DNA of 38,069 nt from Noviherbaspirillum denitrificans (GTDB lineage Bacteria > Pseudomonadota > Gammaproteobacteria > Burkholderiales > Burkholderiaceae_D), in contig NZ_LSTO01000001.1 in assembly GCF_002211445.1 (NCBI RefSeq), positions 4,231,337 through 4,269,405 on the forward strand, read 5' to 3'. A program made the position numbers and the translations under genes. This document shows, in pieces, positions 24,702 through 29,153 of this stretch. The first letter of the stretch is position 1. Each line of letters opens with the position of its first letter. The notes under the pieces were generated by a model. It made no database searches. It saw only the letters and a program-made list of their open reading frames with translations, and was not told the DNA's origin.

Positions 24702-26609
24702 TCAGGCGGGCGGCTTGTACAGGAACACATTCTGCCCGACGTCATTGACGAGGACGAACACGCCTTTCGACGGGCTGTAGCGGAAGCGGCCGTAGGTGCC
24801 CCACTGCTGCTGGATGCCCGGGTCGTCGCCGGTTGCGGCAAGCTTGCTCCATGCCGCGGTGGCGGGATTGAACGTATAGACATCACGTCCGCCGCCCCAC
24901 GCGAAGAACTGGTCGCGCGCATCAACATACACGAAGCCAGGCCGGGTGCCGAGGCCGGCAGGCGCGGTGCCCGTCACGGGGATGTCCATGTAGGTCGGGC
25001 TTGCCGTCAGGGTGGCTGGCATGCCGATGTTCCAGCGGCGCATGGCGTAGGTGCCATCCGTCTTCGGGAACATGACATACAGGTGGTTGCGCTTGCGATC
25101 GATATCCGTGCCGCCGCCCGCGTCATAGTTGTTGAGGCCGTAAGATTTCCACGTATTTGTCATCGGATCGTACTCGCCGATCTTCCCTTGTTCGCCTGCC
25201 ACCGTCCACATATGTCCGGCTGCGTCGACCGCGGTTTGCCCGCGGCCGCCGACACCTGCCGGCTTGTCGGCCATGCGCGACCACAGTCCGGTCGTCGGCG
25301 AATAGCAGACCGCGGTCGGCGACGCGCTCTGTCCGCTCGGATAGTAGGCGGCCGTGCCGATGTAGCAGTAACGGTCGTTCTTGTGGTCGACGAAGACGCC
25401 GCCATAAGTGTGTGAGGAGCGCGGCTGTTGCAGGTCGAGTTGCGACACGACCGGTTCGACGAAGCATTTGTCGAACGCGACATACTCGCCGTTCATGACG
25501 GTATCCGGCAGGCTGAGCACACCTTTCGGATAGAAGCCGCAGGTCTCGACCCGTTTGTCGGTCCATCCCGCCCCGGGCGTGGATCCCGTAGCGCCGCCAC
25601 CCATTTCGGTCAGGCGCTTCCACTTCATGTCTGCAAGGTCGAAGGCAAAGATGTTGTTGTACCAGGAATCGCCATGGCCGCCGCCGTACACGATCATGCG
25701 GTCGCGCGATTCGTCGTACGCGCCGCCGCTCCAAGCCATGATCACCGAGGCGCAGGCATAGGAGTTGTATGGCGCGGGGCAGACATCCTTCATCATTGTC
25801 GATGGCAATGCCTTCCAGGAATTGGGCGGCATGGCGGCCACGATATCGTTGATCGAACCGGCAGTCGATGTTGTGACGGGCGCGCTTTCGAAGATGGCCG
25901 TGACGCCCAGGGCCGAAGTCACCGAGACGGCACAGATCGAGCTTGTGCCGCTGCAGGCGCCGCTCCAGCCCTTGAACGTGTAACCGGTTGCCGGCACCGC
26001 GCTCAGCGTGACCGAGGTGCCGCCGGTATAGGGCTCGCTGCAATCCACGCCGCAACTGATACCAGCCGGCGAAGATGTGACGGAGCCCGAACCGGACTTG
26101 GCGACGCTCAGGGTATAGGTCGCAGGCGTCACGGAGACGGCCTCGAAGCTGGCTGTCACGCTCCGCGCTGCCGTCATCGAGACCGAACAGGTCTGGGTGG
26201 TGCCTGTGCATGCGCCTCCCCAGCCCTTGAACAGGTATCCCGACGCAGGGACGGCAGACAAGGTAACGGCGGTGCCGTTGGCGTACGCTTCGCTGCAATC
26301 CGTGCCGCAGACGATACCGGCCGGTAAGGAATTGACCGTGCCTGAACCGGACCGGGTGACGCTGAGCGTATAGGCTGTCGACGGCTTCTTGCGATTTCCC
26401 TCGTCCGTGGCGGCTGCTGCCTGTTCGGGCTGCGCCGATGCGAGTGCCGCCTGCAGGGTTTCACCGCCCGAACTAGCCGTTTGCGCCGCCTCGGCGGATG
26501 AACCCGATACCGCCGGCGCCTGGCCGCCGCCGCATGCGGTCAGCGCCAGTGCCAGGATCATGGTCGTTGCCGCAGCCGGGAGGCGCAGCAGGTATTGCTT
26601 TGCTTTCAT
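24702..26609 (-). CDS. Secreted lipoprotein with two InlB-type repeats and a kelch-like beta-propeller
   Basis: The 635-residue protein has a lipoprotein signal (basic start, hydrophobic 11-24, LTAC lipobox with Cys26) followed by a low-complexity Ser/Ala/Gly linker. Two exact-length 85-residue-offset repeats follow (about 79-158 and 164-243), each with YTLSV, SGSG, PAGI, CG.DCSE.Y, V.LSAVP, F.GW.GAC and four cysteines (101, 105, 134, 141; 186, 190, 219, 226). This is the divergent InlB B-repeat/bacterial-repeat type. Residues about 255-635 look like a kelch/galactose-oxidase-type propeller (MIVYGGGHGDSWYNNIFAFD, SHTYGGVFVDHKNDRYCYIG, GGGRDVYTFNPATAAWSKL). It is probably surface-anchored and binds or processes carbohydrate; the function is unproven. 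It has its own terminator and lies 57 bp downstream of the minus-strand lyase-like gene. Confidence 0.85.
   Translation of the reverse strand: MKAKQYLLRLPAAATTMILALALTACGGGQAPAVSGSSAEAAQTASSGGETLQAALASAQPEQAAAATDEGNRKKPSTAYTLSVTRSGSGTVNSLPAGIVCGTDCSEAYANGTAVTLSAVPASGYLFKGWGGACTGTTQTCSVSMTAARSVTASFEAVSVTPATYTLSVAKSGSGSVTSSPAGISCGVDCSEPYTGGTSVTLSAVPATGYTFKGWSGACSGTSSICAVSVTSALGVTAIFESAPVTTSTAGSINDIVAAMPPNSWKALPSTMMKDVCPAPYNSYACASVIMAWSGGAYDESRDRMIVYGGGHGDSWYNNIFAFDLADMKWKRLTEMGGGATGSTPGAGWTDKRVETCGFYPKGVLSLPDTVMNGEYVAFDKCFVEPVVSQLDLQQPRSSHTYGGVFVDHKNDRYCYIGTAAYYPSGQSASPTAVCYSPTTGLWSRMADKPAGVGGRGQTAVDAAGHMWTVAGEQGKIGEYDPMTNTWKSYGLNNYDAGGGTDIDRKRNHLYVMFPKTDGTYAMRRWNIGMPATLTASPTYMDIPVTGTAPAGLGTRPGFVYVDARDQFFAWGGGRDVYTFNPATAAWSKLAATGDDPGIQQQWGTYGRFRYSPSKGVFVLVNDVGQNVFLYKPPA
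25881..26375 (-). repeat. Two tandem 85-codon repeats inside the kelch-like lipoprotein gene
   Basis: Repeat 1 (26375 down to 26136) and repeat 2 (26120 down to 25881) are spaced exactly 255 bp apart with no indels: the tyrosines at residues 80 and 165 and all four cysteines keep the same offset. The conserved Cys pairs suggest one or two disulfides per repeat, consistent with an exported protein. Confidence 0.85.
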
Positions 26610-26666: not shown

Positions 26667-28694
26667 TCAGGCGTTCCGCGGACGGACGCTCCATACCGGC
26701 TGCGTGTTCATGCTGCTTACCAGCAACGGCCAGTTCGCAGCGCCGGTCATCCGGCGATAAGCATCGAGTGCGCCGGGAACGCTGTGCTCGACGGCGTAGG
26801 CGATCGCAGGCTGGAGGTTGCCCCAGTAACTGGTCGCGTCCGGGAAATAGCCGCCACGCAGGTCGCCGGCAATGCCGCTGTTGGGACTGCCCGTCGTCGC
26901 AGTGTAGGCCTGTCCCCAATCGGCAAACCACGGCCCCGTGCCGCCGGTGTAATCTGGCGTATCGCTTGGGGCGATTGCGACGGTATAGACCGCAGCGTCG
27001 CGATACAGGTATTCGGTCGGTGCCGTGCCGCCCAGGCGGCCGATGATGCTGCGCGCCTTCCATGCGAAGAACTCCCGCATCCTGGTCTTGCCGGTTGCGG
27101 AAAGCGGAAGGTCCATGTCGAGGGCGTAGCCATACGAAGCTGTGAAGAAATCCTGCATCCACGCCGCTTCGAAATATTTGCCGTCGCCGTTGGTGGTGTA
27201 GTCCGAATAGGGCTGCACGAAACCGAGCGGATTGTTCGCCATCGCAACATAGCGGCCGTGGTAGAAGTTCACGTTCGACTCGAGCGAGGCTAGGAATTCG
27301 CCGCGCAGCGCGGTATCGCTGTCCGGCGTGATACATGCTGCCTGCGCCAGCGTGCGTGTCGCCCAGGCCGCGCCGCGGGTTGTGTTGGCGCCCGCATTGC
27401 TCAGCAGGACGCCGGCCGAGAACTGGCGCTGGGTATCCGTATTTTTGAGATAGTGGACAGTCGCCGCGAACTGCACTTCTTCCATGAAGTAGAAGCGGCC
27501 GGTCAGCAGATAGGCCATGAAGCCCACGGATGGATGGTGCGTGGAATTCCAGGTCGGCGGTGTAGTGCCGGTAGCCGTCGGCGTATAGGTGTTCTTCGAC
27601 GATGCGCCAGTGCCGGCGAGACCGCTGCTGCCGTCAAGGACGAGGTTGGGATAGCTGGAAAAACGCAATGGCCGCTGGGTGCGCTCGTCGCGGAAGTGGA
27701 TGCCGTAGCGTCCGGCGCTGTAGGCATTGACGATCACGCCGGCGTAAGCACGCAGGTCGCTGCTTGCAAGGTAGGCTGCGTCCCATTCGGGCAGGAGGCC
27801 GATTGAACCGTGATAACCGGCAGTCCCCATTCCCGCCGGATAATTGCCCTGCTGGAGCGGCGTATACGTTTGCGCAAGGCTGGACCAGAACGTGGCGGTC
27901 GACGACAGTTGGCCGCGATACGCGGGCACCAGGCGCGCGGCCTGCAGGTAAGCCTTGTCATGGGTAGGCGTCAGCTTCGGATCGCTGCCCAGCCAGTGGG
28001 ACAGCGCGGTGCCCGACACCAGTACCGTACGCGTGTGGTTGAGCAGGTCGAAGGCAGCGCTGAAGCGCTGCGTGCCGCCGAGGGTAAAGGAATAGGTAGC
28101 GTTCTTGTTGGTCGGGGCGGCGACGGTGAGGTAGCCGTTTTCAATCCAGGGCAGGACTTCGACGGCGCCGCCCTTGTACAGCCGGACTTCGAGCCAACCG
28201 ACTAGATGCGCATCGCTGCCGACCGGCTTGCGGTAGATCCAGGAGCTCATGAACGGGCCGCGGATCCATTCCATGAAAGGCGCATCCCAGTCGGTGCCGG
28301 ACCACGCGGCGGAACCGAAATTGCCTGCACCGATGGCGGCCGAAATGCCTGTTGCCTTCAGGTCGGCGAGGGATAGCGCGACCGCAGTCGATGCCTGGCC
28401 GATGCCCAACCCGATGGTCTTGGGGCCGGCCGCCGTGAACGAGGTCAAGCCGGACACGATCGCGAACTTCACGGAACCGTCCGGCCAGGCATTCTTGGGC
28501 ACGACCTGGAGTTCCGGGATATTGCCGATCGCGCTGGAACCTGCCGGAATCTCGCCCTTGCGGAAAGCGTGCCCAATCGTGAACGGCAAGTTGTTGCCGG
28601 CCTGCGCTGCGGTCACCTGGAAGGATGCGGACAAGACAGGCGCCGGCTGCACCTGGACGGTGAACGGCGGGGACGATACTTTATGCTTCGGCAT
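26667..28694 (-). CDS. Large lyase/glycosidase-like protein lacking its own signal (probable 3' part of a split gene)
   Basis: This 675-residue protein starts at ATG 28694 with a GGAGGG Shine-Dalgarno seven bases upstream. Its N-terminus (SSPPFTVQVQPAPVLSASFQ) reads like the end of an Ig-like domain rather than a natural protein start, and no signal peptide is present. Residues about 25-100 (PFTIGHAFRKGEIPAG, then NAWPDGSVKFAIVSG) resemble the beta-barrel N-domain of the PcRGLX/YetA rhamnogalacturonan-lyase-like proteins. The rest is rich in Trp/Tyr/His helices (GFMAYLLTGRFYFMEEVQ, NTTRGAAWATRTLAQAA) as in alpha/alpha toroid polysaccharide lyases. That fold call is an inference. It is in the same reading frame as the upstream Tat-lipoprotein ORF, separated only by TGA GTC. 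A likely role is modifying or trimming the exopolysaccharide. Confidence 0.75.
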   Translation of the reverse strand: MPKHKVSSPPFTVQVQPAPVLSASFQVTAAQAGNNLPFTIGHAFRKGEIPAGSSAIGNIPELQVVPKNAWPDGSVKFAIVSGLTSFTAAGPKTIGLGIGQASTAVALSLADLKATGISAAIGAGNFGSAAWSGTDWDAPFMEWIRGPFMSSWIYRKPVGSDAHLVGWLEVRLYKGGAVEVLPWIENGYLTVAAPTNKNATYSFTLGGTQRFSAAFDLLNHTRTVLVSGTALSHWLGSDPKLTPTHDKAYLQAARLVPAYRGQLSSTATFWSSLAQTYTPLQQGNYPAGMGTAGYHGSIGLLPEWDAAYLASSDLRAYAGVIVNAYSAGRYGIHFRDERTQRPLRFSSYPNLVLDGSSGLAGTGASSKNTYTPTATGTTPPTWNSTHHPSVGFMAYLLTGRFYFMEEVQFAATVHYLKNTDTQRQFSAGVLLSNAGANTTRGAAWATRTLAQAACITPDSDTALRGEFLASLESNVNFYHGRYVAMANNPLGFVQPYSDYTTNGDGKYFEAAWMQDFFTASYGYALDMDLPLSATGKTRMREFFAWKARSIIGRLGGTAPTEYLYRDAAVYTVAIAPSDTPDYTGGTGPWFADWGQAYTATTGSPNSGIAGDLRGGYFPDATSYWGNLQPAIAYAVEHSVPGALDAYRRMTGAANWPLLVSSMNTQPVWSVRPRNA

Positions 28695-28697
28695 GAC

Positions 28698-29153
28698 TCA
28701 GCCCTCCATCGCGGTCAGGATGTGGCCGCTGGTCGCGGCGGCGCTGCCGACACCGTCATAAACAAAGCTCCTGGTCGCCGAATCGAAGGTCACGCCTGGC
28801 GGCAGGGCGAGCTCGTTCTTGAGGATGGTGAGCGCTGCCGTATCGTCATCCGAAACATACGCTGCGACGGAGAATGTCGATGCCACGCCTTCGGTGAAAG
28901 TGATGGTCGGAATCTCGTTCCATACCGGCGCACGGTCAGCCGCCGCGGTCTGCACATCGGGTGCAGACGGATTTTGCTGCGTCGGGGTGGCACGTGCAGC
29001 GGCTGCCCCTTCTGCGAGATCGGCAGTGCCGGAAGCGCCACCGCCACCACATGCGGTGACAGCGACGGCTGCCGCAGTCATGCTCATGTTGCGCAGGAAT
29101 ACGCGTCGGGTGATGCGGTGTGCGAGGCCGGTTTGGATATCGGATTCAGTCAT
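28698..29153 (-). CDS. Tat/lipoprotein leader with Ig-like domain, ending at an in-frame TGA (probable 5' part of a split gene)
   Basis: The 151-residue ORF has a textbook twin-arginine motif TRRVFLR (15-21), a hydrophobic segment 25-34 and a lipobox VTAC with Cys35, then a low-complexity Ala/Thr linker. Residues about 75-148 resemble a cadherin/putative-Ig-like strand set: PVWNEIPTITFTEG, SVAAYVSDDDTAA, LPPGVTFDSATRSFVYDG, SGHILTAMEG. Such domains normally continue with one more strand, which is found just after the stop in the next ORF (PPFTVQVQP). The stop is TGA at 28698-28700. The next start is three bases further and in the same frame. The ATG has AGGAA eight to nine bases upstream. Either this is a nonsense-interrupted gene or two coupled polypeptides are made. 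Confidence 0.75.
   Translation of the reverse strand: MTESDIQTGLAHRITRRVFLRNMSMTAAAVAVTACGGGGASGTADLAEGAAAARATPTQQNPSAPDVQTAAADRAPVWNEIPTITFTEGVASTFSVAAYVSDDDTAALTILKNELALPPGVTFDSATRSFVYDGVGSAAATSGHILTAMEG
28702..28707 (-). promoter_or_regulatory. Internal Shine-Dalgarno before the lyase-like ORF
   Basis: On the minus strand GGAGGG lies seven bases before ATG 28694 and immediately before the TGA of the upstream ORF. Ribosomes terminating at the TGA could reinitiate at once. The codons involved also encode Met-Glu-Gly of the leader ORF, so the motif may be fortuitous. Confidence 0.55.

Follow-up and report, generated by a model that had tools for sequence, protein, structure and literature searches.

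Is a stop codon in the middle of an Ig-like domain a defect in one gene or the boundary between two? The question arises in the window, a stretch of 38,069 nucleotides from Noviherbaspirillum denitrificans that carries an exosortase-A exopolysaccharide locus (TIGR03109, TIGR03007, TIGR03018, TIGR03016, TIGR03015, TIGR03099, TIGR03098, and TIGR03101 above cut-off; the amidotransferase TIGR03108 below it). A leader ORF with a TRRVFLR motif and a VTAC lipobox stops here within an Ig-like domain, and a larger ORF restarts just past the stop in the identical frame, with 459 bp between the two starts and seven bases between a GGAGGG and the restart ATG (Table 1). Read through, the two ORFs would give one product of 828 residues. 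We confirmed this layout and its motifs exactly as a first-pass annotation had described them. That annotation took the TGA to split a Tat lipoprotein from its catalytic part and left open a recent CGA-to-TGA mutation, a sequencing error, deliberate readthrough, or split translation with reinitiation.

Table 1 Features of the split locus, in window coordinates.
Feature	Position	Strand	Remarks
Kelch-type protein downstream of the enzyme	24702..26609	(-)	own LTAC lipobox; two InlB-type (InlB B-) repeats
Enzyme gene	26667..28694	(-)	675 aa without a visible signal; weak likeness to PL26 (PcRGLX) in the N-terminal part
N-terminal tag of the enzyme, proposed donor strand	28647..28694	(-)	MPKHKVSSPPFTVQVQ; tag in 15 enzymes and 14 second cargos
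Proposed coupling site	28692..28707	(-)	GGAGGG, stop, restart ATG; from sequence
TGA stop of the leader	28698..28700	(-)	followed by GTC, then the restart ATG
Leader ORF	29153-28698	(-)	151 aa; last residues ...GHILTAMEG, then TGA
Leader gene, proposed acceptor and anchor	28698..29153	(-)	homologous leaders in 15 genomes

The split site and its conservation

To collect relatives, the window enzyme was used as a query against 392 family genomes, 26 of which gave matches at E <= 1e-60; the M. horti enzyme (L018) reached the same level in 4 of 399 order genomes, the window genome G000 included, and, at stricter levels, in 10/74, 4/62, and 3/5 genomes of three genera. Leader-enzyme pairs were found in 15 genomes from four genera of one family (G000, G017, G798, G413, G258, G399, G337, G347, G147, G327, G351, G397, G142, G787, and G780). 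In all 15 the split falls at one and the same point of a cadherin/He_PIG-like Ig domain, and because this holds in every genome found with such a pair, the split is beyond chance; its conservation across relatives is nearly certain.

The details of the junction vary. The leader stop is TGA in 4 genomes, TAA in 8, and TAG in 3, and the gap from stop to restart runs from -4 to +12 nt, with the restart 3-5 nt past the stop in eleven, 11-12 nt past it in three, and overlapping it in one (the G780 junction was read by eye). Relative to the leader, the second ORF is in frame 0 in 8 genomes, +1 in 4, and +2 in 3. The close relatives G413, G787, and G780 have gaps of 12, 12, and 11 nt, so a change of frame has been tolerated with both ORFs kept. 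In G142, leader and enzyme (L042, contig C36) possibly overlap as GTGA, the sole possible overlap among the 15 junctions; an alternative start there is a GTG 5 nt past the stop.

A single gene of about 828 codons, interrupted by a recent nonsense mutation or by a sequencing error, would explain why the frame is kept and why a single stop separates the ORFs in the window, but it does not explain 15 assemblies that split at the same place with three different stops, seven of them out of frame. Moreover, the leader Ig is under purifying selection in relatives (dN/dS 0.04-0.42 in 9 pairs, the window lying outside these pairs), as is the enzyme. On the sequences of the relatives, this explanation is already refuted, and we regard its probability as practically nil. 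Programmed readthrough or frameshifting into one 828-residue product agrees with the eight in-frame genomes and with the predicted Ig-like matches of a read-through model described below. It is at odds with the differing stops, contexts, and frames, with the frame change among the three close relatives, and with the presence of the same tag on a second protein that has no fused leader sequence. Since the 15 junctions share neither a stop nor a frame, neither readthrough nor frameshifting can be the conserved mechanism, and we consider a single product of this kind very improbable. Relatives consistently encode the stop and restart as two ORFs, in 15/15 genomes, the outcome that the first-pass annotation had named as counting against its reading, and of the options first listed, split translation with reinitiation fits best. 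Coupled restart is the simplest reading of the junctions; leader and enzyme form a conserved pair of genes that are probably translationally coupled.

An unfinished leader and a tag shared by two unrelated proteins

The leader runs from a Tat motif (RRVFLR) through the VTAC lipobox and a linker to the cadherin/He_PIG-like Ig domain. By motif match, RRxF[ILM][KRQ] and a lipobox occur in 16/16 leader entries tabulated, which come from 14 genomes. The leaders stop 2-3 residues past a conserved [IV]L[TSI]A strand motif (three residues past GHILTA in the window), and the stop falls just past strand E69-78 of a predicted 111-residue Ig-plus-tag model. As the first-pass annotation had it, the leader stops inside the domain: the He_PIG (PF05345) match in the window covers only profile positions 2-61 of 96, and the matches of the leaders from the window, G147, G327, G017, and G142 end at positions 59-77. 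The whole window leader scores 23.1 bits, under the Pfam cut-off of 24, while its Ig part alone scores 25.8 and the scan of the G000 genome gives 24.3, both above it; the whole leaders of G798, G413, and G258 gave no He_PIG match.

The distribution of the leader follows that of the split enzyme. Across the 392 family genomes, a leader profile has a near full-length match in 12, and these are the 12 with a split enzyme (up to 3 candidates per genome scored for the enzyme and up to 9 for the leader); a 13th genome has a weak match over positions 11-77 of 150. With up to 9 candidates per genome scored, the open frames that hold the 13 strong matches reach 197 aa at most, and no match falls in a long frame. 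When every candidate is scored, the leaders of the 15 split genomes are short open frames of at most 220 aa, and the strong match is single in 14 of them, G142 having two. Every strong leader match in the 15 genomes adjoins a tagged cargo. Hydropathy of the N-termini did not separate leader from cargo.

The enzyme ORF of the window begins with MPKHKVSSPPFTVQVQP, where by eye we see neither a twin-arginine motif nor a lipobox, in agreement with the earlier description of an ORF with no signal of its own. The residues PPFTVQV that follow the restart do resemble a last strand. They belong to an N-terminal tag with the approximate consensus SSNPF[TS]IxV, strand-like in its alternating F-x-I-x-I pattern, which is found on the enzyme in 15/15 genomes and on a second signal-less protein in 14/15. 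This second cargo adjoins the split enzyme in 13 of the 15 genomes and follows the second leader in the 14th, G142. It has about 420 aa with no visible signal (no twin-arginine motif or lipobox by eye). In G327 the tags of enzyme and second cargo read MAQTSSAPFSIRI and MAQVSSAPFGIRI, and in G017 MIQIFSNLFSIQI and VAQSSSNLFKVEI. At the second leader of G142 (L100, contig C179), the tagged second-cargo gene lies about 200 nt past the leader stop with no enzyme between, and the gene contains a run of N.

The tag sets the second cargo apart from other frames. A profile made from enzyme tags only was run over the first 45 residues of 610 open frames (at least 150 aa, six frames) in 12 stretches. 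The 14 second-cargo tags score 15.3-31.0 with this profile, and the eight second cargos in the scanned stretches rank above the other 593 of the 610 frames, the best of which scores 9.8; the nine enzymes in the scan rank high by construction. With the tags left out, enzymes and second cargos show no similarity (3 enzymes x 13 second cargos, best blastp E 0.5). A shared tag on two unrelated proteins is new here, and we consider a docking role for it likely. With nine of the 14 genomes as representatives, the two tags are more alike within a genome than after permutation, at 59/81 identities against a permuted mean of 47.6 (P 0.0002), a comparison that kinship confounds; a shared socket, gene conversion, or kinship by itself could account for the likeness.

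What the two cargos do can be said less firmly. The enzyme is weakly PL26-lyase-like: matches to PF19501 are weak and below the Pfam cut-off in every protein scanned, a phmmer search against PDB chains gave no match at E <= 1, and Foldseek pairs the read-through model with the PL26 exo-rhamnogalacturonan lyase PcRGLX (5xqg) at probability 0.99-1.00 and a TM-score of 0.13-0.15, the model being of low confidence. In four split enzymes the PcRGLX_1st match, also below cut-off, starts 34-36 residues in, at profile position 17-19. Given that distance, the tag is unlikely to open the enzyme's own barrel as its first strand, and leaderless relatives have the barrel part with no tag. The enzyme may be a lyase acting on exopolysaccharide. 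Within the flanks compared, the split relatives L016, L018, L019, L023, L027, L029, and L042 have no match to the other 26 window proteins, nor do L017, L022, and L034; L020 and L021 have six each and L049 one. With so few locus proteins matched, the substrate is a guess. The second cargo is 50-67% identical to the C-terminal part of a fused paralogue, L011, in the six cases compared. Because no Pfam family was found for the four second cargos scanned, any reading of this protein as a propeller draws solely on this homology and on its place in fused proteins.

In the window, the kelch-type protein occupies the place of the relatives' tagged second cargo. Taking it for the second cargo is not supported (E 0.13 with the second-cargo profile), and no second cargo was found in the window genome, which is 97.9% complete, at E <= 1e-5. 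The C-terminal parts of the fused relatives L020/L040 and L032 match the kelch protein at E 3.6e-7 and 3.3e-6.

Fused relatives and the register of the proposed strand

L011 is a second copy in the M. psychrophila genome, in which one frame of 1147 aa encodes the enzyme and the second cargo together with a Tat lipobox signal. It has neither the Ig domain nor either tag, the tag being absent from its first 160 residues. In a tree of 31 rows (15 split and 16 other), L011 is nested inside the split clade as sister to two split members (support 96/93), and the clade of split members plus L011 has support 91/96. The simplest history that these sequences suggest is a re-fusion in which socket and both tags were lost together; more than one split is possible.

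Most leaderless relatives are, like L011, single chains that combine a Tat-type lipobox signal of their own with a long C-terminal part. We see such a signal in L011, L020, L021, L032-L041, and L043 (L040 repeats L020, the same protein), and also in the more distant L049-L051. The signals of L044 and L045 (about a third identical) are Sec-like, and L022 and L003 show none; Tat export of the family is therefore not universal. He_PIG found no match in four fused proteins scanned, and over the first 160 residues of 11 fused proteins the tag profile scores at best 5.0. Over whole fused proteins it picks out a C-terminal SSNLFFIRT of L032 at 17.1, equal to the weaker second-cargo tags; this stretch lies near residue 1068, and L020 and L034 end in a similar SN[LI]FFIRT. 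In L022 (Azohydromonas aeria), the enzyme homologue comes as two tblastn pieces in one frame about 190 nt apart, with no leader match upstream.

These relatives bear on the possibility that the locus makes two separate products, a leader alone outside the cell and a cytoplasmic enzyme whose tag does something unrelated. The lack of a visible signal in the enzyme ORF fits this, but the enzyme's leaderless relatives mostly carry their own Tat-type lipobox signal (L003, L022, L044, and L045 excepted), and each strong leader match in the 15 genomes sits next to a tagged cargo. We judge separate products improbable.

If the tag instead acts together with the leader, does it serve as the missing last strand of the Ig domain? 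Two AlphaFold models disagree on this point. The read-through model (14 rows; mean pLDDT 51, pTM 0.36) has block means of 72-88 over residues 81-150 and places the tag as a strand at 164-169 (block mean pLDDT 83). In the 111-residue Ig-plus-tag model (15 rows; mean pLDDT 70), the tag is predicted to be disordered (residues 80-98, pLDDT under 50), and the last strand comes from VLSASFQVT, the start of the enzyme's own barrel. Foldseek matches of the read-through model include the SraP cadherin-like domain (98 columns, rmsd 2.6) among many Ig/cadherin chains, and those of the shorter model are again Ig/cadherin-like; a PDB sequence search with the Ig-plus-tag profile gave four matches, three of them antibody chains, with a best E of 0.2.

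The Pfam profile was also applied to read-through sequences. Of five in-frame genomes, two have a He_PIG match that reading through lengthens to 93-94 of 96 (G147, 18.4 to 22.2 bits; G327, 16.1 to 17.0 bits); in the window the match is not extended (23.1 to 22.3 bits), and the two other in-frame genomes have no match. We then compared the Ig part alone with the same part joined to the enzyme tag, the second-cargo tag, and one shuffled tag. In G147 these score 22.2, 26.3, 27.3, and 21.8 bits, so that both tags raise the score (+4.1 and +5.1) and the shuffled tag lowers it (-0.4). In G142 the scores are 24.5, 24.5, 25.4, and 22.9 bits (0.0 and +0.9; shuffled -1.6), and the match reaches 93-95 of 96 with the real tags but not with the shuffled one. 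The corresponding values are 19.7, 19.1, 18.6, and 18.5 bits in G327 (-0.6 and -1.1; shuffled -1.2) and 26.4, 25.5, 25.1, and 25.8 bits in G017 (-0.9 and -1.3; shuffled -0.6). In the window, which has no second-cargo tag, the Ig part scores 25.8 bits and falls to 25.2 with either the enzyme tag or the shuffled one (-0.6 each). Two genomes therefore favor the strand reading and three do not discriminate. The Ig part of G798 with its enzyme tag matches to 95 of 96 at 18.0 bits, a result that stands with no control.

These mixed register tests leave some room for a tag that binds the leader or a common partner in another geometry, as a docking peptide or as a joint between enzyme and second cargo. 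Against these alternatives, the leaders end 2-3 residues past [IV]L[TSI]A, the tag has the F-x-I-x-I pattern of a strand, the Ig domain and both tags are jointly absent from L011, and the window genome keeps its tag though no second cargo was found there. We consider another geometry unlikely, though it deserves some weight.

A proposed export complex and its relation to known systems

We think it probable, from the sequences, that leader and enzyme make up a two-chain exported lipoprotein. The first gene would encode a Tat lipoprotein with an Ig domain short of its last strand, and the second a signal-less enzyme whose first ~16 residues would supply that strand. Strand complementation would bring the two together in the cytoplasm, the folded complex would cross by the Tat route on the leader's signal, and lipidation of the leader cysteine would hold the enzyme at the envelope. 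An acceptor of the same kind would serve the second signal-less tagged protein, which 14 of the 15 genomes have; here the stoichiometry of a single acceptor for two cargos counts against the proposal. The first-pass annotation had taken the leader for a Tat lipoprotein, which the motifs support, and had concluded that the large domain would stay in the cytoplasm if there were no readthrough; this conclusion is not forced if the leader carries the enzyme along as a hitchhiker. More tentatively, and with a little less than even confidence, we see a modular system, in which a Tat lipoprotein with an unfinished Ig domain would be a common socket by which any folded protein with an N-terminal strand tag could be exported and fixed to the envelope. 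Two unrelated cargos would use this socket, and re-fusion would make socket and tags dispensable together.

Chaperone-usher pilins complete an Ig-like domain with a strand supplied in trans, by donor-strand complementation, and SpyTag is an engineered split Ig tag that acts covalently; pilin assembly is periplasmic and polymeric. The proposed pair would share with both an Ig-like domain that lacks a strand and receives it in trans. In contrast to them, the pairing proposed here would be cytoplasmic and non-covalent and would serve export.

On the export side, the excerpts available from PMC4273604 describe Tat hitchhiker co-export by the HybOC hydrogenase and by PaoABC, in which a subunit with a Tat signal carries signal-less partners, two of them in PaoABC. 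The likeness would lie in one Tat-signal partner with apparently signal-less riders, the Tat motif being a motif match here and export a prediction from it. HybOC and PaoABC are cofactor enzymes, whereas here the carrier would be a small lipoprotein whose Ig domain is incomplete, and the same short tag stands at the N-terminus of two cargos that are otherwise unrelated. A further case is the glucose dehydrogenase of B. cepacia, where excerpts of PMC6719666 describe a small gamma subunit with a Tat signal, called a "hitchhiker protein", that is needed to secrete the signal-less catalytic alpha subunit. That gamma subunit has five alpha-helices, and the main text of that paper contains no word that starts with "lipo"; the carrier proposed here is an Ig lipoprotein. 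By analogy, the pair would work like both Tat hitchhikers and strand complementation. In the literature excerpts searched, we found no description of a twin-arginine/donor-strand system or of a split-Ig Tat-lipoprotein system.

The practical warning is to check relatives before calling an in-domain stop a mutation. Such genes, read singly, may pass for broken or cytoplasmic. If the proposal is true, the pair might be put to use as a small display tag that binds non-covalently, and these bacteria would have a natural strand-tag and socket pair that exports folded enzymes by the Tat route, beyond the redox-enzyme hitchhikers in the excerpts cited above.
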